Of a DNA stretch of 64,000 nt, positions 8,277 through 20,741 are shown in pieces. The notes under the pieces were generated by a model. It was not told the origin of the DNA and did no database searches. It saw nothing but the letters and a program-made list of their open reading frames with translations. The position numbers were made by a program, and so were the translations under genes. The first letter of the stretch is position 1; each line of letters opens with the position of its first letter. The DNA comes from Streptomyces sp. NBC_00250 (GTDB taxonomy: Bacteria; Actinomycetota; Actinomycetes; Streptomycetales; Streptomycetaceae). The stretch covers positions 1,922,001 through 1,986,000 of the forward strand of contig NZ_CP108088.1 in the NCBI RefSeq assembly GCF_036192275.1, in the 5' to 3' direction.

Positions 8277-8299
8277 GCGCGGCGGCTCAGTCCTGAAAA

Positions 8300-8339
8300 G
8301 AGGGGAGCCCCGACCGATGTCTCGGTCGGGGCTCCCCTC
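8300..8339. terminator. Bidirectional terminator hairpin
   Basis: Two perfectly complementary 18-base arms (8300-8317 and 8322-8339) flank a TGTC loop. It lies between the convergent unknown gene and the immunity gene. Confidence 0.85.
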
Positions 8340-8385
8340 CTGCTTCGCCCGTGGCCGGGCCGGTACGACCGGCCCGGCCGCGCTC

Positions 8386-8958
8386 CTAGTGAGCGTCGAG
8401 CCAGCGGCGTGCCGCCGGGCTCAGCGGGGGCTCGTCCGGATAGTCCAGGAATCCGGCCGCCAGATCCTCGGCCCACTCCCGGAGCACCCGCGAACGATGC
8501 GGCGCCTTCAGCACCGAGGTGCTGATCGCGTGCTCCCACGTCGTCGCGAAGAGCAGCACGTTCCCGTCGAGCGAGAGCATGCGGAACTCGGGACGGCAGG
8601 GGGCGCTGCCGAGGGGCCCGGCGGCTCCCGCGCCCATGATGTCCCATTCGGGCTGCAGCTCGACGCAGTACCACTGCAAGCCGTCGTCGTCCGCGGTGTC
8701 CAGCGCGAGCAGGAACCTTCGGTCGGTCTCGGAGAAGAGCCCTCCTTCGACCGCCAGCCGGTACCAGTCGGCGTTCGCCCTCTCGTGCAGCTGCGGTTCG
8801 AGGACGTCCAGCATGGCTTCGACGCGCCCGTCCGAGGCCGGGCAGCTCGCGGCCTGGCCGGTGACGACGGGCGGAACGAGCCCCTCGGGCTCGGTCCATC
8901 CGTCGACGAGCGACAGACCCGCTGCGGCCAGTGAGTCCACTGCGGCCGGCGGCTTCAT
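8386..8958 (-). CDS. Predicted immunity protein for the RHS toxin
   Basis: A 190-residue soluble protein with no signal peptide, rich in Asp, Glu, Leu and Trp, with a calculated-looking acidic character typical of toxin-neutralising proteins. I do not recognise a named immunity family. The case rests on position: its ATG overlaps the toxin stop codon (ATGA), it is the only gene directly downstream of the variable toxin tip, and a terminator follows. GGAGG lies about 12 bases before the ATG, inside the toxin coding sequence. A cytoplasmic protein that binds the C-terminal domain of its neighbour would protect the producer. The 190 residues contain the segments RFLLALDTADDDG and ELQPEWDIM, which may help a family search. 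Function is inferred, not seen. Confidence 0.7.
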   Translation of the reverse strand: MKPPAAVDSLAAAGLSLVDGWTEPEGLVPPVVTGQAASCPASDGRVEAMLDVLEPQLHERANADWYRLAVEGGLFSETDRRFLLALDTADDDGLQWYCVELQPEWDIMGAGAAGPLGSAPCRPEFRMLSLDGNVLLFATTWEHAISTSVLKAPHRSRVLREWAEDLAAGFLDYPDEPPLSPAARRWLDAH

Positions 8959-11900
8959 CGGGGAGACCCACCTCCATGACTCGCGTACCAACCGGATCCC
9001 GGCTGGTTCCACCTGCCTGGCAGGCGCCCGGCATATCCGTATTCGTGGACCGTATTGTAATTGTGGCCCAGGACGTACCCGACGACGCCGTCGGAGCGGA
9101 CGAGAACGCGGTTCAGGGTGTCCCGGCCTCGCCTGTCCAGGACGGTGTACACCGTCGCGTCGTACCACGGGTTGTTGGTGTTGTAGGTGGTCACACCGTT
9201 TCGCACCCTGCGGGCGTCGTACCAGTCGAGACCGTTGTTGTTGACCCGCTGAGCCTGCCGACCGCTCTCCACACGGTTCACGGTCGCGTGCACGTCACCC
9301 GGGATCTCGGACCAGTTCTGCGCGTTCTCCGCCTGGCGCTTCTCCGTGAGCTCCGGCGAGTACGGGTCGACTTCCTCGCCACCGGTGGGGCAGCTTTCGT
9401 TGTGGTTGAGGAGCGAGGTGCCCGACGCCGTCACGTAGTACGTGTGGAGGTCGGAGACCGTCAGGTTGTGAACCGTGGCCGCCTGGGCGGTCCTGCGCTC
9501 GACGGCGGTGATCTGGACCCGGGTTCCGGCGCTGGTCTCCAGCCACTGGCCCGACGTCAGGTCGGTGGCCTTGAGCCAGGCACGGAGCTGGGGCACCCAG
9601 AACGGGTGGCCCTCGGTCGCGGTGACCTGGGCCGTCTTCGACCCGGCCTTGCCGTCGGTGTCGACGGTGATCGTGACGAGGTGCTTGAGGCCCTGGCCCG
9701 TGATCTCCGCGGTGACCGTCTCGACCCGGGTCTCACCGGACTTGGGGTCGGTCGCGAGGACCTTGTCGCCGGTCCTGACCTTCTCGATCGGCTTGGTGGA
9801 GCCGTCGGCCATCAGCACCTTCGTGCCGGGCACGAAGCTGTTGCAGCCGGACTTGCCGGAGCCGCCGCCACCGCTGGATCCACCGTTGCTGCGGGAGGAA
9901 CCGCCGGAGCTTCCGCCCGGCTTGGACCCGCCGGACTTGCCCCCCTTGCCTCCGCCCGCCTGCGAGGAGGACTTGGGAGCGGCCTTGGCCTGGGAGCTCT
10001 TCTGAGCCGGGTTACCGGTCTTCTTCTTGGCGGCCGCCGCCGCTTCGGCCTTCCGTTTGGCGGCCTCGGCCGCCTTCTTCTTGGCCCGTTGCGCGGCCTC
10101 CTTCTTCGCCTTCTCGATGGCGGCCTTCTTGGCCCTGAGAGCCGCTGCCTCGGCCGCCTTGGCCGCCTTGAGGACGGCTTCCGCGGCCGCCTTCGCCTTC
10201 TTGAACGCCTGGATGGCGTTGATCGTGCGGTCGACCGCCCTCAGGACGGACGGGATCTTGCCCAGCTTGGTCCACGGGATCGCCCCGATGATCATGCTGC
10301 CGCAGGACCACATGTCACCGCCGAAGCAGGCCATGGCGTCGGTGAGGCCGATGAAGTCACTCAGGACGCTCCAGGCCGCGGCGAGGATCACCGAGGTCAG
10401 GGACTTGCCCGAGGTGGCCTGCGCCTGCGCGACCTGCGCCGCGGAGAGACCCGCGCCCACGAGGGCCGCCGCCTTCTCCGAGGCGGTCAGGGTGATCGCC
10501 TCACCGGTCGGGTCCGCGTGGGTGACCGGGTTGTTGTGCGCGTAGACGTATCCGTTGGCCTGCAGCGGGTCGTTCAGGTCCATCTGCGGGTCGGCGGACA
10601 GGAATCGTCCGACCACCGGGTCGTAGAGTCGGGCGCCCAGCAGCGTGTAGCCGGAGGCGTCGTCCCGGGTCTTGTTGAGGAACCCGGTGTGCGCCTGCAT
10701 GTTGGCGCCGACGGTGCCGGCACCGCGCTGGTTGCCGAACGCGTCCTGCTTGCGGATCCGCACGTCCATCGAGGCGCTCAGCGCGACCTCGGTGTAGGTG
10801 GAACCCTGGTGGTCCGTGGTCAGAGCGACCAGCCGGTCCGCAGCCGTGCCGTAGGCGTAGCGCATGACCGAGCCACTGGGGGTGGTGTAGGTGCGCTGCG
10901 AGTTGACCAGGACGCCGCCCTGCTGGACGGTGACCTCCGTGTCACCCAGGTTCAGGGTGGCCGTCTTGCCGTTGATGGTGAGCAGACGCTCGCCACCGGG
11001 ACCGTAGATGTGACGGGTGTCGTTCTGCGGCGCCCACAGCTGCGCGGCGGAGGCTCCGTCGCACGTGGCCAGGACGATCGCCGTGCCGCTGGCCGAGTTG
11101 GCACCCTGCACCGCCAGGCACAGGTTGGACGCGATGTGCGTCAGCTGGCCGGCGGCGTTGCGCTTCAGCTCCTGCGCCGCGGCCGCCGCGGGGGTGGCGG
11201 CGCACTTCTGGACCTGTACCGCGGATCCGGGAGTGTTGGCTGCCGGCTGGACGCACCAGTCGTCGAGCACCGACAGCGCGCCCCGGTTGGCGTCGATCTG
11301 CGGAGTTGTCGGCGTGCTCGGGGTGGGGGTGAACTTCCAGCTCTGCGCCGCGGAGGCGTTGCAGGTGTACAGCTGGACCGCCTGTGCGGCGGCCGGGATG
11401 CCGCTCTTGAGGTCGAAGCACTTGTCGGCCAGGCCCATGTAAGGGGTCTTGCCGCCGGCGCCCGCACCGGTGATCCGGTCGACCTTGCCGTCCGGCGTCC
11501 AGGTCAGCGTCTGCTTGTCACCGTTGTCGAGCGAGGTGACGGACTTCGTCTGACCCGTGAGCTCGTACAGGCGCTCGGCCTCGGCCTTGACCTGCGCACC
11601 CGCGGGGGTGGTGTAGGTCTTGGAGGCCTTGGTGAGCGTGTGCGGCTGGCTCTTGGCCGCGCCCACACCGTACTCGTACGTGGTGGTCGCGTCCTTGGCC
11701 GTGGCGCCGGTCAGGTCCTTCTCGACCAGCTTGGTGCGGTTGCCGAGGAGGTCGTACTCGTACTCCTGCCAGTAGCCGGAGGTGTCCTTGCCCGCGGCGA
11801 CGTTGAGCGTGCCGTCCGTGTTCTTCGGAGCGGTGCAGTTCTCCTGGTCCTTGGAGGTCCAGGCCGTCTTCAGCTGACCCAGCGGGTCGTACGTGAAGCA

Positions 11901-14900
11901 CTGCCGCTCCTCGATCCCGGTGGCGTGCTCACGGATGCCCGTGACGTTGCCCGCGGGGTCGTAGGCGTACTCGCGCTTCGAGACCAGGTTGCCCTCGACC
12001 GGACCGACACCGACCGTCTGCTCCCGGTAGACCATCTGGTTCTGCAGCTCGCCGGTGGACTCGTCGTACGAGTTCTGTGACCACACCCGGTACGGCACCG
12101 CGCCCATGGTCGAGCGCATGACCTGGCCGTAGGGCGAGTAGACCGTCTCCGAGCCGTACCAGTCCTTGCCGGAGATCGAGAGCGGGTTGCCGTCCTTGTT
12201 GTAACGGATGACCAGCTTCTCCGGGTCGAACTTGCCGGCCTTGGGAAGGTGCGCCTCCTCCAGCATGCCGTTGTCGGAGAACTTGTAGTCGTACTGGTAG
12301 TCCGCGGGGATGCCCCACGTTGCGGCCACCGAAGACGGCAGGGACAGCGTCGTCGAGGTCGGCTGGTAGTCCGTCGTGTAGCCGTTGACCTTCTGCGTGT
12401 ACGCCAGGCCGTCGGTGTACCGGGTGGCGGAGGCGGGCATGCCCTTGCCGCCGGCGACGGAGTCGTACGAGAACCCGGCGAGAAGCGTGCCCGTGGAGCC
12501 GCTCAGGCGCTGCTCCTTGGGCCGGGACAGCTCGTCGTATCCGTTCCAGATCGTCACGCCACGCGCGTCGGTCGTGGTCAGGGGCCGGTCACGGTCGTCG
12601 TACGTCAACCGCGTGGTGCCCGTGTCCGGGTCGGTCGCGGTCTCCATCCGGCCACGCATGTCGAACGTCCACGACCACGGGTGGGTCGGGTCGGCCGAGC
12701 TCGTCGCCTTGGTCAGCTGACCGCGGCTGTCGTACGTGTAGCGCGTCGACGTGTAGCCGCCGGGCGCCGCCGGGTTGGTGGTGTCCGTGCGGACGGTGCG
12801 GCCGAGGGCGTCGGTGTAGACCTTGTAGGCCGAGGCGCCCTGCGGGTGGATCACCTTCGACCAGTCGGATCCGTACTGGTAGCGGGTCGCCTTCTCGGGC
12901 ACCTCCTGCGAGATGGCCTCGGTGGTCCCGGGGGCCTTCACCTTGAGGACCGGCATCTCCTCGAGCACGCGGCCGAGGCCGTCGTACTTGTACCGGGTGA
13001 TGTTCGGGACCGTGGTGTCGGCGCGCGGGGTGAACAGCTCGCCGCTCGGGGTGTCCTCGTTGAGGTAGGCGTTGTTGGTCTGGTAGACCTCACCGGCGCT
13101 GTTGTACAGCGTGTCGGTGATCAGACGGCCACCGCCGTCCGCCTCCTCCTGCGACTGGCGCTCGCGGCCGAGACCGTCGTAGATCGTGACGGACTTCTCG
13201 ACCCGGTCCTCGTAGCCACGGCTGTAGGTCGTGATGTACGGGGGCTTGCGGAGGGTGCCGCCGTTCGGATCGTTCGGGTCGGGCTCCTCGTCCGGAGTCA
13301 CGTACTCGGCCTTGAAGTCCGGTACCTTGCCCGCGCCCGGTGTCCGGCCGGGAGCCCAGGCCTCGGCGAGACGGCCCAGCGGGTCGAACGACGCCTCGCT
13401 GACGTGGCCGTTGGCATCGGTCGTCTTCAGCGTGACCGCGCGGCCCGGCTCCACCTCCTGGACCTGGGTGTGGCCCAGCGGATTCGTCTGGGTGATCTTG
13501 AAAACCTGACCCGTCGGCGGGTCGAAGGCGATCGAGGACTCCCTCTTGTCCGGGTCGATCTGCTTGGTGACACGGCCCATGGCGTCGAAGACGACGGTGC
13601 CGCCGGTCTGGAAGCCGGTGCCGTCCGCCTTCAGGGACCACGTCTCGGTCGCCAGACCACGGTTCGCGTCGGCGGGCGCCGTGCCGTACACCGTGTTGTC
13701 GTACGCGGTCCGTGCGCCGGCGGTCAGCGTCTTGAGATCACCCCAGTTCGCGTCGGCACATGCCGTGGGCGAGACGAGGACCTGCTTGGTCAGACCGATG
13801 ATGTTCTTGGTCGTGTTGTGCAGGTACTCGAGCTTGGTGCAGGACTCGTCACCGGTCTTGACGGGGTCGGCGTCGCCGAACGACTCCACCTGCGTGGGCA
13901 GACCGTGGACGCTGTCGAACGTCGTCCTGGTGCGGACGCTCCGCAGGGTGCGGGTGTCGTCACCCGTGCCCGACGACTTCGTGTACGCGATCTCCTCGGG
14001 CTCGGTGACGCGCCACGCCTTCAGCGGGTCGAGGCCGTCGCCGCGGGTGCGGCTGGCGAGCTCGGTGGCCTCGGGGACGGTGAGGCTGCGGGTGAGCCAG
14101 TCGCCGTCGGCGTCGGTCGCGTCGGAGTAGCTGAACTCCTCGGCTATGCGGCCGGCGAACGCCTCGCGGTCGTAGACCGTGGCACCGTCGTGGGTGAGCG
14201 TGGCGCCCGCGATGTTCTTCATCGGGACGGTGTCGCCCATGCCCCGGTAGAAGCGGGTGACCGCCTTGGTCTTCGGTCCCTCCGTCCCCGGCGTGTCCTC
14301 GCCCGGGGTGGAACCCTCGCCGTTGTCGGCGGCGACCTTCCGCTCGCCCGTGACGACGGCGGTCTGCTCGAAGCCCGCGAACTGCGAGTACGTGCGTGTG
14401 GACTTCTTGCTGAACTCCGCCTCGGCGAGCTTCCAGCCGGCGTTCTTGTAGTCGTACGACGTCCGCGTGGAGTACGAGCCGTCGACGTTCGGCAGCTCCT
14501 CGATGGAGTCGACCACGTACTTGTGGAACCAGTCGATGTCCTCGACCTCGGCGTCCGGGTGCCAGTACATCGGGTAGCACAGACGCGTGTTGGCCTTCAG
14601 AGCCGCGGTGTCCGTCTTGCCGGGCAGGCCCTGCCTGCTGGCGCAGCCGTCCTCCGCGTCACCCCAGGTCGGCATCTTGTAGGTGACGACGGTCTCGCCG
14701 CCGTACTCGTTGACGACGCGGCCGATGCGCAGCCTGGCGAAGCCGGGGCGCGGGTCGATCGGCTCCCCCTTGTCCTCCCCGGCGGTCTTCCGGAGCAGGA
14801 CGCGGTTCGGCATCTCCTCCTCGTTGGACTCGAACCGGATCGGGTTGAGCTTGACCGAGGCGTCCGTCGAGCCGTTGCGGGCGTAGCCGGTGCGCTGGAT

Positions 14901-17039
14901 GGACTCCAGCCACAGGGCCGTGTTCGGGCCGGTCTTGAGGACGGGGAAGTTCTGCGTGAGCTGGTACTGGTCGACGTCCTGGCGCGCGGTGGTGTCGGTG
15001 CGGCGCTGGGCCGAGGTGGTGATCTTGTCCAGGCGCTTGGTGGACCAGAAGGTCGGGCCGGCGTTCCAGCACTTCTTCTTGTCCGTCGAGGTGACCGCCT
15101 GGCACCGCAGGTCGACGGGGGTGTCGTACCAGATGCGGTACTTGCCCGGGTCGGTCGACGTGAAGTTCGCGTCGCTGCAGGTCAGCGCGCCCTCGGCGAA
15201 GCAGCGCTCGTCGACGCCGAATCGCACGCGGGCCGGGGCCGTGGCGCTGAAGACGGTGTCCTTGCGCTGGCCGTAGTCGATGTGCTTCAGGAAACCGCCG
15301 CGGTGGTACTCGACCGGGCCCTTGAAGTAGAAGTTCTTCGCGTAGTAGTTCTTCTCGCGCTCCCACCACAGCGACATGGCGTTGCCGTGGACGTCCTCGA
15401 CGTAGTCGAGGTTCCACTGCCAGGCCTGGTTGCAGGCGGACGACTTCCAGTCGGTGGTCGTCGCGCCCTTGTAGCAGGGCTCGCCCGGGTGGTTGCCGTA
15501 GACCGGCACCGCGAGCACGGAGTCGGTGTACGGGTCGTCGGCGGCGGTGTCGTTGTCCGACCAGCCCGGGAGCTTGTTCAGGCCGAAGTGGTACTTCGTG
15601 CCGTCCCTGGTGGTGACAACCCAGTACTCGCCGTCGGCGTCCTTCATGCCCGAACGCGGGTCCTTGGACGTGTCCTTGAACCGCTCGATCTTCGAGCCGT
15701 CACCGTTGGCGCTGAACCACTTCTGCTTGGCCTCGTCCCACACCAGCTCGGTGGTCATGCCGCCCAGCGACAGGGTGGCGTTCTCCGAACCCCAGCACAG
15801 GTCGGCGGTCTTGTGGGTCGAGTTGTTCGAACCGGCCTTCTTGGAGTCCTGGCGGCAGTTGACGTACGTCCGGCTGATGGAGCCCGGGTTGTAGTCCCAG
15901 CCGTCGCCGATCCAGGAGGCCTGGTTGTTCGACGCCGAGGTACGGCCGTCGACCGTCTGCGACGAGTAGCTCAGGCTGACCTTCGGTGTCAGACCGCCGG
16001 CGGCCTCCGGGACCTGCACCTGGTAGCCGTAGGTGAAGGCGCCGTTCGACGAGCCGGCGGCCCAGGAGCCGGCGGACAGCAGCGGCGAGGCGGTGAAGTC
16101 GCCGGTCGCCGAGGCGCCGGTGTCCATCGCGCCGACGACCTGGCGGCCGGAGGAGTCGACGGCCGGGAGGGCGACCTGCCGGGCCGAGACGCCGGAGACC
16201 TTCGAGCGGGCGACGCCGTCGTCGAGCAGGTTCGCGACCGGCACCGATCCGGACAGGATCTTGCGGGTGGGCGCGTTCTTCTTGAGCTTGGCCTTGGTGG
16301 GGGCCTTGGCGGCCGGCACCTCCTTGACCGTGGACCGCAGCCGCTCGATGTCGTCGGCGACCTCGCGCGAGCCGGACATGGTCTCCGTGCCGGTGTCCGG
16401 GGCGCAGTCACCGGTGTCCGGGGAGTCGATGACGCAGTTCGGCAGCAGGACCAGGCCGAAGCGCTCGGCGGCCTGGGGTCCGTAGCGGTCGGCGAATCCG
16501 GTGGTGTCGACCTCGAGCGTGACCTGCGCGGCCGGATCGGCGGTCGCCGGCGGGACGACCTCCATGATCATGCCGGGGACGCCGGTCTCCTCCGACGTGG
16601 TGGTCGACTTGACCGAGACCCGCCAGTCACCGGCGATCGCCGCCGGGTCCTGACCGGCCGGCACACCGACCGCGACCGGCAGACCGGCAGACGTGGTCTC
16701 GTTGACCACCGGGACCGAGGTGCCCGGCTGGGTCTGCGCCGTCAGCGGCGCCTTGCCGGTGTCCGCCGCCCACGGGTCGACGGCCCCCGGCACGTAGGGA
16801 TCGATCTTCTGCTCGTCCCCGAGGCTCAGCGTCTTGTCGGCGCTGGCGTCGTCGGCGAGCGCGGTGCTCTCCGGGATGTCCGGCAGGTCGACCTGGGAGG
16901 TCGTCTGCTCACGGCTCATCCCGTCGCCCGGGACGGCCAGGGCCTGCGAGCCCAGACTTGTCACCGTCAATACCGATGACAACAGAAGGACGGTCGCCGT
17001 GCGGCTTCGCCGACGGCGCCGTCGTTGTGACTCTGTCAT
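8955..17039 (-). CDS. Secreted RHS-repeat polymorphic toxin with ricin-type lectin insert and HINT domain
   Basis: A 2,694-residue exported toxin. The layout is: Sec-type signal peptide after a run of seven arginines (cleavage near Ala35); N-terminal SpvB/YD-shell-like region; YD/RHS repeats from about 1150 to 1850; a ricin-type beta-trefoil at about 1863-2005 (AQSW and AQLW QxW-like motifs, paired Cys); the RHS core ending GRFLSADP...DPTG near 2150; a Lys/Ala-rich helix; a Gly/Ser linker; a HINT autoprocessing domain at Cys2399-Asn2547 (CNSFVPGTKV start, HN end); and a 147-residue variable tip. In RHS toxins the shell encloses the tip, and HINT cleavage is thought to release it. The tip is not one I can assign to a nuclease or deaminase family. 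The ATG chosen starts MTESQ; an ATG 16 codons upstream (17087) has a better GGGAG site and remains possible. It is divergent from the FG-GAP protein gene. Confidence 0.92.
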   Translation of the reverse strand: MTESQRRRRRRSRTATVLLLSSVLTVTSLGSQALAVPGDGMSREQTTSQVDLPDIPESTALADDASADKTLSLGDEQKIDPYVPGAVDPWAADTGKAPLTAQTQPGTSVPVVNETTSAGLPVAVGVPAGQDPAAIAGDWRVSVKSTTTSEETGVPGMIMEVVPPATADPAAQVTLEVDTTGFADRYGPQAAERFGLVLLPNCVIDSPDTGDCAPDTGTETMSGSREVADDIERLRSTVKEVPAAKAPTKAKLKKNAPTRKILSGSVPVANLLDDGVARSKVSGVSARQVALPAVDSSGRQVVGAMDTGASATGDFTASPLLSAGSWAAGSSNGAFTYGYQVQVPEAAGGLTPKVSLSYSSQTVDGRTSASNNQASWIGDGWDYNPGSISRTYVNCRQDSKKAGSNNSTHKTADLCWGSENATLSLGGMTTELVWDEAKQKWFSANGDGSKIERFKDTSKDPRSGMKDADGEYWVVTTRDGTKYHFGLNKLPGWSDNDTAADDPYTDSVLAVPVYGNHPGEPCYKGATTTDWKSSACNQAWQWNLDYVEDVHGNAMSLWWEREKNYYAKNFYFKGPVEYHRGGFLKHIDYGQRKDTVFSATAPARVRFGVDERCFAEGALTCSDANFTSTDPGKYRIWYDTPVDLRCQAVTSTDKKKCWNAGPTFWSTKRLDKITTSAQRRTDTTARQDVDQYQLTQNFPVLKTGPNTALWLESIQRTGYARNGSTDASVKLNPIRFESNEEEMPNRVLLRKTAGEDKGEPIDPRPGFARLRIGRVVNEYGGETVVTYKMPTWGDAEDGCASRQGLPGKTDTAALKANTRLCYPMYWHPDAEVEDIDWFHKYVVDSIEELPNVDGSYSTRTSYDYKNAGWKLAEAEFSKKSTRTYSQFAGFEQTAVVTGERKVAADNGEGSTPGEDTPGTEGPKTKAVTRFYRGMGDTVPMKNIAGATLTHDGATVYDREAFAGRIAEEFSYSDATDADGDWLTRSLTVPEATELASRTRGDGLDPLKAWRVTEPEEIAYTKSSGTGDDTRTLRSVRTRTTFDSVHGLPTQVESFGDADPVKTGDESCTKLEYLHNTTKNIIGLTKQVLVSPTACADANWGDLKTLTAGARTAYDNTVYGTAPADANRGLATETWSLKADGTGFQTGGTVVFDAMGRVTKQIDPDKRESSIAFDPPTGQVFKITQTNPLGHTQVQEVEPGRAVTLKTTDANGHVSEASFDPLGRLAEAWAPGRTPGAGKVPDFKAEYVTPDEEPDPNDPNGGTLRKPPYITTYSRGYEDRVEKSVTIYDGLGRERQSQEEADGGGRLITDTLYNSAGEVYQTNNAYLNEDTPSGELFTPRADTTVPNITRYKYDGLGRVLEEMPVLKVKAPGTTEAISQEVPEKATRYQYGSDWSKVIHPQGASAYKVYTDALGRTVRTDTTNPAAPGGYTSTRYTYDSRGQLTKATSSADPTHPWSWTFDMRGRMETATDPDTGTTRLTYDDRDRPLTTTDARGVTIWNGYDELSRPKEQRLSGSTGTLLAGFSYDSVAGGKGMPASATRYTDGLAYTQKVNGYTTDYQPTSTTLSLPSSVAATWGIPADYQYDYKFSDNGMLEEAHLPKAGKFDPEKLVIRYNKDGNPLSISGKDWYGSETVYSPYGQVMRSTMGAVPYRVWSQNSYDESTGELQNQMVYREQTVGVGPVEGNLVSKREYAYDPAGNVTGIREHATGIEERQCFTYDPLGQLKTAWTSKDQENCTAPKNTDGTLNVAAGKDTSGYWQEYEYDLLGNRTKLVEKDLTGATAKDATTTYEYGVGAAKSQPHTLTKASKTYTTPAGAQVKAEAERLYELTGQTKSVTSLDNGDKQTLTWTPDGKVDRITGAGAGGKTPYMGLADKCFDLKSGIPAAAQAVQLYTCNASAAQSWKFTPTPSTPTTPQIDANRGALSVLDDWCVQPAANTPGSAVQVQKCAATPAAAAAQELKRNAAGQLTHIASNLCLAVQGANSASGTAIVLATCDGASAAQLWAPQNDTRHIYGPGGERLLTINGKTATLNLGDTEVTVQQGGVLVNSQRTYTTPSGSVMRYAYGTAADRLVALTTDHQGSTYTEVALSASMDVRIRKQDAFGNQRGAGTVGANMQAHTGFLNKTRDDASGYTLLGARLYDPVVGRFLSADPQMDLNDPLQANGYVYAHNNPVTHADPTGEAITLTASEKAAALVGAGLSAAQVAQAQATSGKSLTSVILAAAWSVLSDFIGLTDAMACFGGDMWSCGSMIIGAIPWTKLGKIPSVLRAVDRTINAIQAFKKAKAAAEAVLKAAKAAEAAALRAKKAAIEKAKKEAAQRAKKKAAEAAKRKAEAAAAAKKKTGNPAQKSSQAKAAPKSSSQAGGGKGGKSGGSKPGGSSGGSSRSNGGSSGGGGSGKSGCNSFVPGTKVLMADGSTKPIEKVRTGDKVLATDPKSGETRVETVTAEITGQGLKHLVTITVDTDGKAGSKTAQVTATEGHPFWVPQLRAWLKATDLTSGQWLETSAGTRVQITAVERRTAQAATVHNLTVSDLHTYYVTASGTSLLNHNESCPTGGEEVDPYSPELTEKRQAENAQNWSEIPGDVHATVNRVESGRQAQRVNNNGLDWYDARRVRNGVTTYNTNNPWYDATVYTVLDRRGRDTLNRVLVRSDGVVGYVLGHNYNTVHEYGYAGRLPGRWNQPGSGWYASHGGGSPR

Positions 17040-17531: not shown

Positions 17532-20500
17532 GTGCCCGCGCCGCCTCGTCTTCTCAGCCCGTTCGTGCGCACGCGCACACGGCTCACACTCACTCTCGGC
17601 CTCGTACTGGCCGCACTCACCGCCGCGCTCCTGCCCTGGTGGCAGCCGAGCACGCCTTCGCCCCTCAGCTCCCCCCGCTCGCCCCGTACGGATGCCAAGC
17701 AGGCGTCGACCGGACCGAAGGATGAGGCCGCTGCCGCGGCCGAGGCCAAGCGCACCGGCAAGAAGGTGCTCGTCGACACGGCGACCACCGCCACCGAGCT
17801 GATCTGGGCGCTGCCGAACGGCCAGATGCGCACCCAGATCCACGCGCTGCCCCAGCGCGCGAAGAACGCCCAGGGCAGGTGGGCGCCCATCGACAACACC
17901 CTGCACCGGACGGAGAAGGCCGGCGCTCTGGCCGTCCGCCCGGTCAACCCGGCCGTGCCCGTCCGCTTCTCGGGCGGCACCTCCGGCAAGGATCGCGCCG
18001 ACCGCTCGTTCACCCGTCTTCCGCTCGCCGAGGGTGCGGGCGACGCGTCCGTCCTCGCCGAGGTCGACCTCGGCGGCCACACCATCGCCTACACCTGGCC
18101 CGGCGCCCTGCCGAAGCCGGTGCTCGACGGCCCGCGGGCCCTCTACTCCGAGGTGTTTCCCGGCGTCGACCTGCTCCTCGTGGCGCGCGAGGAGGGCGGC
18201 TTCGGCCAGCTTCTGATCGTCAAGAACCGCGAGGCCGCACGGAACAAGGACCTCGCGACCGTCTCCTACGGCCTGCGGTCGAGCACCGCGGTCTTCCGGC
18301 AGGACGCCAAGGCCAACCGCGTTCAGGTCCTCGACAAGACGGGCACGGAGGTCGGCACCATCCCGACCCCCTTCGCCTGGGACTCCAGCGGCCGGGACCC
18401 CGAGCTCAAGCCGGGCACCCCCCAGCGCACGTCGGTCGCCGGCCCCGCCGACGTCCTGAAGCTGTCGGGTCTGACCGGCATCGAGCCCGGCGCGCGCTCC
18501 GCGCAGCTCCCGGTCGCGCTCGACGGCGACGGCACCGGTACGGCTGCCCTGAACCTGGGCCTGGGCCGGACCGGCCTCCTCGACCACCCGGACACGAAGT
18601 ACCCGGTCTTCATCGACCCGCCGCTCAACAGCGGCTGGGCAGGCTGGACGACCGCGTACAAGAAGTACCCGAGCTCCAGCTTCTGGAACGGCACGAACTT
18701 CTCCTCCGGCACCTCCGACGCACGCGTCGGCTACGAGAGCGACACCGGCGGCCTCGGCCGCTCCTTCTGGCGGATGAAGTTCTCGTCCAGCTACGAGGGC
18801 GCGAAGTTCACCCGAGCCACCTTCAAGGTCAAGAACAACCACTCCTGGTCCTGCACCGCGCGTGAGTTCCAGTTCTGGCAGACCGGCTCCATCTCGTCCG
18901 GTACGACCTGGAACGCGCAGCCGAGCTGGTCGACGAAGCTCGACTGGCAGTCCTTCGCCCACGGCTGGTCCTCGAGCGGCTGCCCGGACGCGTACGAGGC
19001 GTTCAACGTGCTGGCCGGAGTCCAGAAGAGCGCGGACGCCGGCGCCGAGACCCTCACCTTCGGCATGCGGGCCACCAGCGAGGGCGACACCCAGACCTGG
19101 CGCAAGTTCCTCGCGACCTCCGCCGTCGTGGAGGGTGACTTCAACCGTGCCCCGTCCCAGCCGACCAACGGCACGTCCTCGCCGGGCGGCGCGTGTGTGC
19201 CCGGACCGACCAACAGCGTCACCATCGGCCGGACCACCATCACCCTGAAGGCCAAGGGCTACGACGCGGACAACACCATTCCCAAGCTGCGGTTCCGGTT
19301 CTGGAAGTCCGGTGCGGCCACCAAGACCGAGTACCTCGCCACCGCGGACTCCACCGGCTACGGCCAGATGGTCATCCAGGCCGACAACGCGCTGCTGACG
19401 GGCCTCACGGGCAACACCCTCTTCTCCTGGGACGTTCGCGCCGAGGACGCGGCGGGTGCGGTCTCCACGTTCTTCCCGGTGGGCGACGAGCCGTGCCGGA
19501 TCACCGTGGATCCGACCGCACCGCCGCAGCCGGACATCACCAGCACCGTGTTCACCGAGGCCACGCCCGACGGCAAGACCTGGGCCAAGGTCAAGTACGG
19601 CACCGCCGGTGACTTCACCTTCAGTGCCGCCGGCGCGACCAAGTTCAAGTACGCCTTCGAGGGCGAGAGTCTCATCGAGACGCCGCCTCCCACGAACGGC
19701 AAGATCACCCTCCCCGACGTCCGTCCCCGGCACGCGGGTCCGACCGCCCTGTACGTCTACGCCTACGACGTCAACGGCAATCAGAGCATCAAGGGCGACT
19801 ACTCCTTCTACCTGCCGCCGCGCGACCGCGCCGACGGTCCGATGGACACCGGTGGCGACGACATAGCCGACCTGCTGGTGCTCTACCCGGACGGCAAGCT
19901 GAAGAACTGCGTGGGTGCGCCCGCCGACCCGGCGGTCCCCGGCACCGGCGGTGAGCTGTACAGCTGCCTGGCCGCCTCGTACGTGACCAAGGACAAGAAG
20001 GTCGATCCGCCGAACCACTGGATCGACACGGCCGGTACCGCGTCGCTGATCGCCCACTACAACGACACGTACCCGGGCGACGGTTCGACCGACCTGTTCG
20101 CGGTCACCCCGGACAAGAACTTCTGGATCTACCCGGGTGACGGCTACGGCAGCTTCAACGTCGACGAACGGATCAAGATCCGCCTGCCGGCCAACGCCCC
20201 CGCGCCGTCCACCTGGACGCAGCTGAAGGCGATCGGCGACATCACCGGCGACAAGCTGCCCGATCTGGCCCTGCGGGCCGGGCCGGCGTTCTGGGTGCTG
20301 TCCGGCTACACCGGCGCCACCTTCCAGACCGCGACGCTGATGGAGGGGACCGCATGGGCCCGCCGTGACATCGTCAACATCGCGGACATGAACAAGGACA
20401 GCACGCCGGACCTGCTGTGGCGCAACCTGGACAACGGCAACATGTACGTCCGCCACGGCAAGCCCGGTACGGGCGGCGCCGGCAGCATCGACCTGGAGTC

Positions 20501-20741
20501 GATCAAGGTGGCGGTCAACTCGCTCAACGGTGACGTCGCGTTCGGTACGACGTGGACCGAGGCCAACGTGATGTCCGCGATCGGCATCCCCGATGTCAAC
20601 AAGGACGGCGTACCCGACATCTGGGCCCGCTTCGGTGACACCGGCAACGTCAAGCTGTACTACCCCTCCACCACCAACACCAACGCGCCGGCCAGGACCG
20701 TCCTGGGCGTCGACTGGCGGGGCATCCGTGCCTTGGGCTGA
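17532..20741 (+). CDS. Secreted FG-GAP/VCBS-type repeat protein with DNRLRE-like region
   Basis: A 1,069-residue exported protein, divergent to the RHS toxin gene. An N-terminal hydrophobic segment (about residues 18-35) after an Arg-rich start acts as signal peptide or anchor. The next 550 residues resemble the beta-rich DNRLRE/lectin-like region common in Streptomyces RHS-associated secreted proteins (Trp-rich segments such as GWAGWTTAYKKYP). From about residue 772 there are FG-GAP/VCBS-type calcium-binding repeats (DTGGDDIADLLV, DITGDKLPDLAL, DMNKDSTPDLLW, DVNKDGVPDIWA). The GTG start has GGGAG about 10 bases upstream. Such proteins resemble the TcB/SpvB half of Tc toxin cocoons, so an accessory or delivery role for the RHS toxin is plausible but unproven. 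A strong hairpin terminator follows. Confidence 0.85.
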   Translation: MPAPPRLLSPFVRTRTRLTLTLGLVLAALTAALLPWWQPSTPSPLSSPRSPRTDAKQASTGPKDEAAAAAEAKRTGKKVLVDTATTATELIWALPNGQMRTQIHALPQRAKNAQGRWAPIDNTLHRTEKAGALAVRPVNPAVPVRFSGGTSGKDRADRSFTRLPLAEGAGDASVLAEVDLGGHTIAYTWPGALPKPVLDGPRALYSEVFPGVDLLLVAREEGGFGQLLIVKNREAARNKDLATVSYGLRSSTAVFRQDAKANRVQVLDKTGTEVGTIPTPFAWDSSGRDPELKPGTPQRTSVAGPADVLKLSGLTGIEPGARSAQLPVALDGDGTGTAALNLGLGRTGLLDHPDTKYPVFIDPPLNSGWAGWTTAYKKYPSSSFWNGTNFSSGTSDARVGYESDTGGLGRSFWRMKFSSSYEGAKFTRATFKVKNNHSWSCTAREFQFWQTGSISSGTTWNAQPSWSTKLDWQSFAHGWSSSGCPDAYEAFNVLAGVQKSADAGAETLTFGMRATSEGDTQTWRKFLATSAVVEGDFNRAPSQPTNGTSSPGGACVPGPTNSVTIGRTTITLKAKGYDADNTIPKLRFRFWKSGAATKTEYLATADSTGYGQMVIQADNALLTGLTGNTLFSWDVRAEDAAGAVSTFFPVGDEPCRITVDPTAPPQPDITSTVFTEATPDGKTWAKVKYGTAGDFTFSAAGATKFKYAFEGESLIETPPPTNGKITLPDVRPRHAGPTALYVYAYDVNGNQSIKGDYSFYLPPRDRADGPMDTGGDDIADLLVLYPDGKLKNCVGAPADPAVPGTGGELYSCLAASYVTKDKKVDPPNHWIDTAGTASLIAHYNDTYPGDGSTDLFAVTPDKNFWIYPGDGYGSFNVDERIKIRLPANAPAPSTWTQLKAIGDITGDKLPDLALRAGPAFWVLSGYTGATFQTATLMEGTAWARRDIVNIADMNKDSTPDLLWRNLDNGNMYVRHGKPGTGGAGSIDLESIKVAVNSLNGDVAFGTTWTEANVMSAIGIPDVNKDGVPDIWARFGDTGNVKLYYPSTTNTNAPARTVLGVDWRGIRALG

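Follow-up and report, generated by a model that had tools for sequence, protein, structure and literature searches.

A divergent barnase/RNase Sa-like tip, probably an RNase toxin, and its co-diverging partner gene in Streptomyces sp. NBC_00250

The window analysed here is a stretch of 64,000 nucleotides from Streptomyces sp. NBC_00250 (contig NZ_CP108088.1, positions 1,922,001 to 1,986,000); our subject is an RHS polymorphic toxin gene on its reverse strand and the small gene behind it, P0002. We propose, with a probability of roughly two in three, that the C-terminal tip of the toxin is a divergent ribonuclease (RNase) toxin of the barnase/RNase Sa kind (BECR fold), which would be freed by the preceding HINT domain and against which P0002 would protect the producer. 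A place near the barnase/RNase Sa group is suggested by a predicted fold, by profile comparison and by sister loci in which the same kind of tip is followed by barstar. The parts of the system needed for this argument are as follows.

8955..17039, reverse strand: RHS polymorphic toxin gene, 2694 codons without an internal stop
9399..9845, reverse strand: HINT domain, Cys2399 to Asn2547 (Pfam, residue positions checked)
8958..9398, reverse strand: C-terminal tip, residues 2548-2694, putative divergent barnase/RNase Sa-like domain (model, fold comparison, profile)
8386..8958, reverse strand: P0002, 190-residue gene, probable immunity protein (ATGA overlap, position, co-divergence)

RESULTS

Fold and relatives of the tip

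An initial annotation of this DNA had described an RHS shell with a HINT domain marked by Cys2399 and Asn2547, then the tip, then a 190-residue gene overlapping the toxin stop. All of this holds: RHS repeats are matched in Pfam (E 2e-12), the PT-HINT match (residues 2410-2547, E 3.7e-18) lies ahead of the tip, with the catalytic Cys and terminal Asn at the places named, and the ATG of the 190-codon gene overlaps the toxin TGA as ATGA. The annotation had also found no nuclease family for the tip. Single-sequence searches do fail, there being no match to the tip in Pfam, NCBIfam or PDB sequences and nothing useful from PADLOC, whereas fold, profile and sister loci place it near barnase and RNase Sa; what was offered as possibly a new effector domain looks like a divergent branch and not a wholly new domain.

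Seven RHS proteins found by a region search carry the tip, 52-74% identical, and in the genus it was matched at E 0.01 or better in 7 of 392 genomes, its own included (the match L007, which holds two stops, was left out). Upstream of P0002 relatives we found diverged tips with a common motif. Profile A1, built from 15 tips, gave 18 matches in 17 of the 392 genomes: in 12 the gene immediately downstream is of the P0002 type (G000 and G004, both among the 12, come from a single species) and in 4 it is a different gene; L055 is a full-length tip with no recognised partner, and L051 is truncated. Among full-length tips not linked to barstar, 12 of 13 are directly followed by a P0002-type gene. These partner counts rest on flanks of 1500 bases for whole-genome loci and up to 4000 for other loci; at L017, L062 and L066 the flank upstream is short, so a missing tip there means little. 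Profile A1 had no match in PDB, and NCBIfam had none to any of 24 tips.

The family is mainly found in Streptomyces, with further members in Actinoplanes utahensis (L068), in the Kitasatospora protein P0091 and in P0003, named Actinacidiphila; Streptoalloteichus tenebrarius (L076) has a broken copy. Profile A2, run over 346 genomes from the phylum, matched the tip's own genome alone.

The initial annotation had proposed structure models as a check. The predicted model of the tip has helices at 15-29 and 34-45, then strands at 63-66, 69-72, 81-87, 93-100, 106-109 and 117-119, and so fits the BECR fold, described as N-terminal helices followed by a four-stranded meander in the excerpts of PMC3482391 to which all our statements on that paper refer. 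Its nearest solved folds are RNase Sa and barnase, one family throughout the listing. In hhalign, the tip profile scored against an RNase profile above shuffled profiles, none of which reached its score; the controls gave 11.9 (reversed profile) and 14.8 (immunity profile), and global mode against the RNase profile gave 9.4. Kinship with RNase A, raised by profile A2 against PDB, was set aside as a probable effect of tandem constructs: E 0.0024 is reached only in these, their two domains having i-E 9.5 and 9.9, and single chains give E 0.22 and weaker.

Barstar-linked sister tips

Barnase and its partner barstar, an inhibitor of RNases, are a textbook example of an enzyme-inhibitor pair. The other-type partners beside L050, L052, L053 and L054 are all Barstar in Pfam (E 4.2e-15, 3.7e-12, 5.3e-13 and 5e-10, respectively). 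When eight tips of the window's type were compared by hhalign with these four barstar-linked tips, the probability was 96.4 (E 1.4e-9); by this sequence comparison the two groups of tips are related. As a control, the RHS tip L109 matches PF00545 (E 2.8e-5) and is followed by a Barstar gene (E 6.2e-22). A table in PMC3482391 lists Barstar also for Ntox21, a predicted BECR toxin.

A different partner is seen at L055 (1489-1797), where the gene following a full-length tip matches nothing in Pfam and belongs to neither the P0002 nor the barstar type; it is perhaps a third immunity family.

Conserved residues and the missing glutamate

Six residues stand out across the 24 tips:

9246-9248, reverse strand: R2598, 24/24 tips
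9225-9227, reverse strand: D2605, 22/24 tips
9165-9167, reverse strand: W2625, 24/24 tips
9108-9110, reverse strand: R2644, 24/24 tips
9063-9065, reverse strand: H2659, 24/24 tips
9057-9059, reverse strand: Y2661, 24/24 tips

Within the domain proper, only the D2605 column is acidic in at least 16 of 24 tips (one leader position has 17). The catalytic residues of barnase are Glu73 and His102 (PMC9321962). RNase Sa has equivalents of both. By hhalign, the Arg and His of the RNase align with R2644 and H2659, and its catalytic Glu with V2630; MAFFT aligns the Glu with D2627. Column 2630 holds I in 20 tips, V in 3 and E in 1 (L054), and column 2627 holds G in 13, D in 5, N in 5 and A in 1, with Glu in none. 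A Glu lies one residue ahead of the catalytic Glu column in L052 and L053. The barstar-linked L054 (200-520) inverts the pattern of the other tips: its catalytic column has Glu, and Thr replaces the conserved Asp.

Judged by its sequence, the tip probably acts as microbial RNases do, yet two defining marks of PF00545 are lacking: the Pfam model leaves the tip unmatched, with 1 of 15 family members reaching E 0.058, and the catalytic Glu is not kept, although the catalytic His and active-site Arg are. One might suppose that a barnase-like fold was retained while RNase activity was lost with the Glu, the tip doing harm otherwise, e.g. by binding a translation component. The make-up of both candidate Glu columns favours such a loss, but the RNase-site His and Arg are invariant, an RNase inhibitor guards four sister tips of which three likewise have no Glu in that column, and BECR toxins with differing active-site residues are on record (PMC3482391); we consider this alternative unlikely. 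Slightly less likely again is a nuclease or other toxin of unrelated fold, sharing with RNase Sa a common alpha+beta arrangement, since the structure listing holds a single family, no shuffled profile reached the observed score and barstar is paired with the sister tips.

P0002, a probable immunity protein

Across 18 loci, the tip and its P0002-type partner co-diverge (r 0.93) independently of the shell. This set omits same-genome repeats (L018, L038-L045, L047-L049, L056), tipless loci, the broken L076, the truncated L051, the partnerless L055 and the four barstar-linked loci. The toxin-immunity layout proposed in the initial annotation is thereby strengthened, because tip and neighbour diverge together apart from the shell, and from layout and co-divergence P0002 is probably the immunity protein.

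Single-sequence searches with P0002 (Pfam, NCBIfam, PDB sequences, PADLOC) gave nothing useful: the sole Pfam match, Glft2_N (E 0.15), is under the cut-off, and Pfam shows no Barstar domain (PF01337) in P0002. Immunity profile A3 had no match in PDB, nor had the predicted model of P0002 any Foldseek match at E 0.001 or better. P0002 is commoner than the tip: its relatives number 82 proteins, P0002 included (one labelled SMI1/KNR4 by its source, one with PF19383), and the genus scan matched 77 of 392 genomes. These searches suggest an immunity family missing from Pfam and NCBIfam as searched here.

In Actinoplanes utahensis, two P0002-type genes stand in tandem behind one tip (L068:3995-4537 and L068:4679-5221). 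Among the 94 P0002-like matches of the genus scan, 35 sit in open frames of at least 549 codons (stop to stop); at L035 (1489-1959) the P0002-like sequence opens a long frame that continues into repeat-like sequence with weak HEAT/LRV-like matches under cut-offs. Close relatives at L010, L011, L013-L016, L057-L061 and L063 have no tip in the flank examined; tipless relatives may be orphan immunity genes or have another role.

That P0002 is a co-inherited accessory and not an immunity protein would suit these long frames, the extension at L035 and the flanks without a tip (19 of 30 genus-scan loci, 12 of 21 named loci), but is made improbable by the ATGA overlap, the near-constant pairing with full-length non-barstar tips, the co-divergence and the presence of barstar in the same place in sister loci.

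Other features of the locus

16932..17039, reverse strand: Arg-rich and hydrophobic N-terminus, likely Sec signal (about residues 1-36; by eye)
11034..11429, reverse strand: Ricin_B_lectin domain, residues 1871-2002 (Pfam, E 2.2e-21)
8969..8975, reverse strand: GGAGGTG, probable ribosome-binding site of P0002, 10 bases ahead of its ATG (by eye)
8298..8341, reverse strand: strong 44-base hairpin 3' of P0002, probable terminator (folding energy against shuffles)

The toxin start is uncertain, as the open frame reaches 17180 and a further ATG lies 48 bases upstream of 17039. The Ricin_B_lectin domain, which the initial annotation had not named, sits within the RHS shell, flanked by YD repeats and the RHS core (residues 2099-2179; NCBIfam, E 2e-15), and is also listed for the relatives P0003-P0007. 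The hairpin has a folding energy of -45.7 kcal/mol, against a mean of -20.2 (sd 3.07) for 200 shuffles. A divergently oriented neighbour (17532-20741, forward strand) encodes a protein of 1069 residues that matches an FG-GAP repeat (E 7.7e-8) and has, by eye, a hydrophobic N-terminal stretch.

DISCUSSION

If the tip is indeed an RNase toxin of the barnase/RNase Sa kind, the RHS shell would export it from the cell and the HINT domain, as in its family, would cut after Asn2547 and free it. Fold, profile and barstar linkage suggest that the freed tip would cleave RNA without metal in a competing cell, with H2659 and R2644 kept from the microbial RNase site and Asp2605, together with Arg2598, probably replacing the catalytic Glu. 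P0002 would bind the tip and shield the producer, as layout and co-divergence imply; its family, unrelated to barstar by sequence search, would serve this branch, whereas sister branches would use barstar.

It is tempting to go further, though only tentatively, and see here a branch of the barnase superfamily in which the Glu base was lost, its role moved to Asp2605 and Arg2598, and barstar was swapped for an unrelated, co-diverging inhibitor family. The barstar-linked sisters would then record steps of the move from Glu to Asp2605, L054, a single sequence, keeping the old Glu without the new Asp. A literature search by title found nothing describing the tip family. A family mostly devoid of the catalytic Glu, with branches partnered by barstar or by an unrelated protein, would, if our reading is true, allow tests of how such an enzyme acts when its usual base is gone and of how an inhibitor comes to be exchanged for another.

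Among the closest known systems we count the contact-dependent inhibition (CDI) complex of E. coli A0 34/86, chain I (PDB 5t86); in the literature excerpts consulted, one paper lists 5t86 in a table that concerns a different immunity protein, and another paper names the strain and a CdiA-CT of it. The Tox-Barnase/Imm-Barstar cassettes (PMC3482391) are alike in having an RHS shell and a tip followed by an immunity gene, and the sister tips share their Barstar. They differ in that P0002 has no Barstar match and that the set of conserved residues given for Tox-Barnase (H, H, [ST], FP, [STD]) is another than that of the tip. RNase Sa and barnase themselves (PF00545) provide the nearest solved folds, a profile similarity above shuffles and matched Arg and His; in contrast to them, the tip falls below the Pfam model, has an invariant R2598 and a near-invariant D2605 and no catalytic Glu, and stands at the end of an RHS protein whose partner is not barstar.
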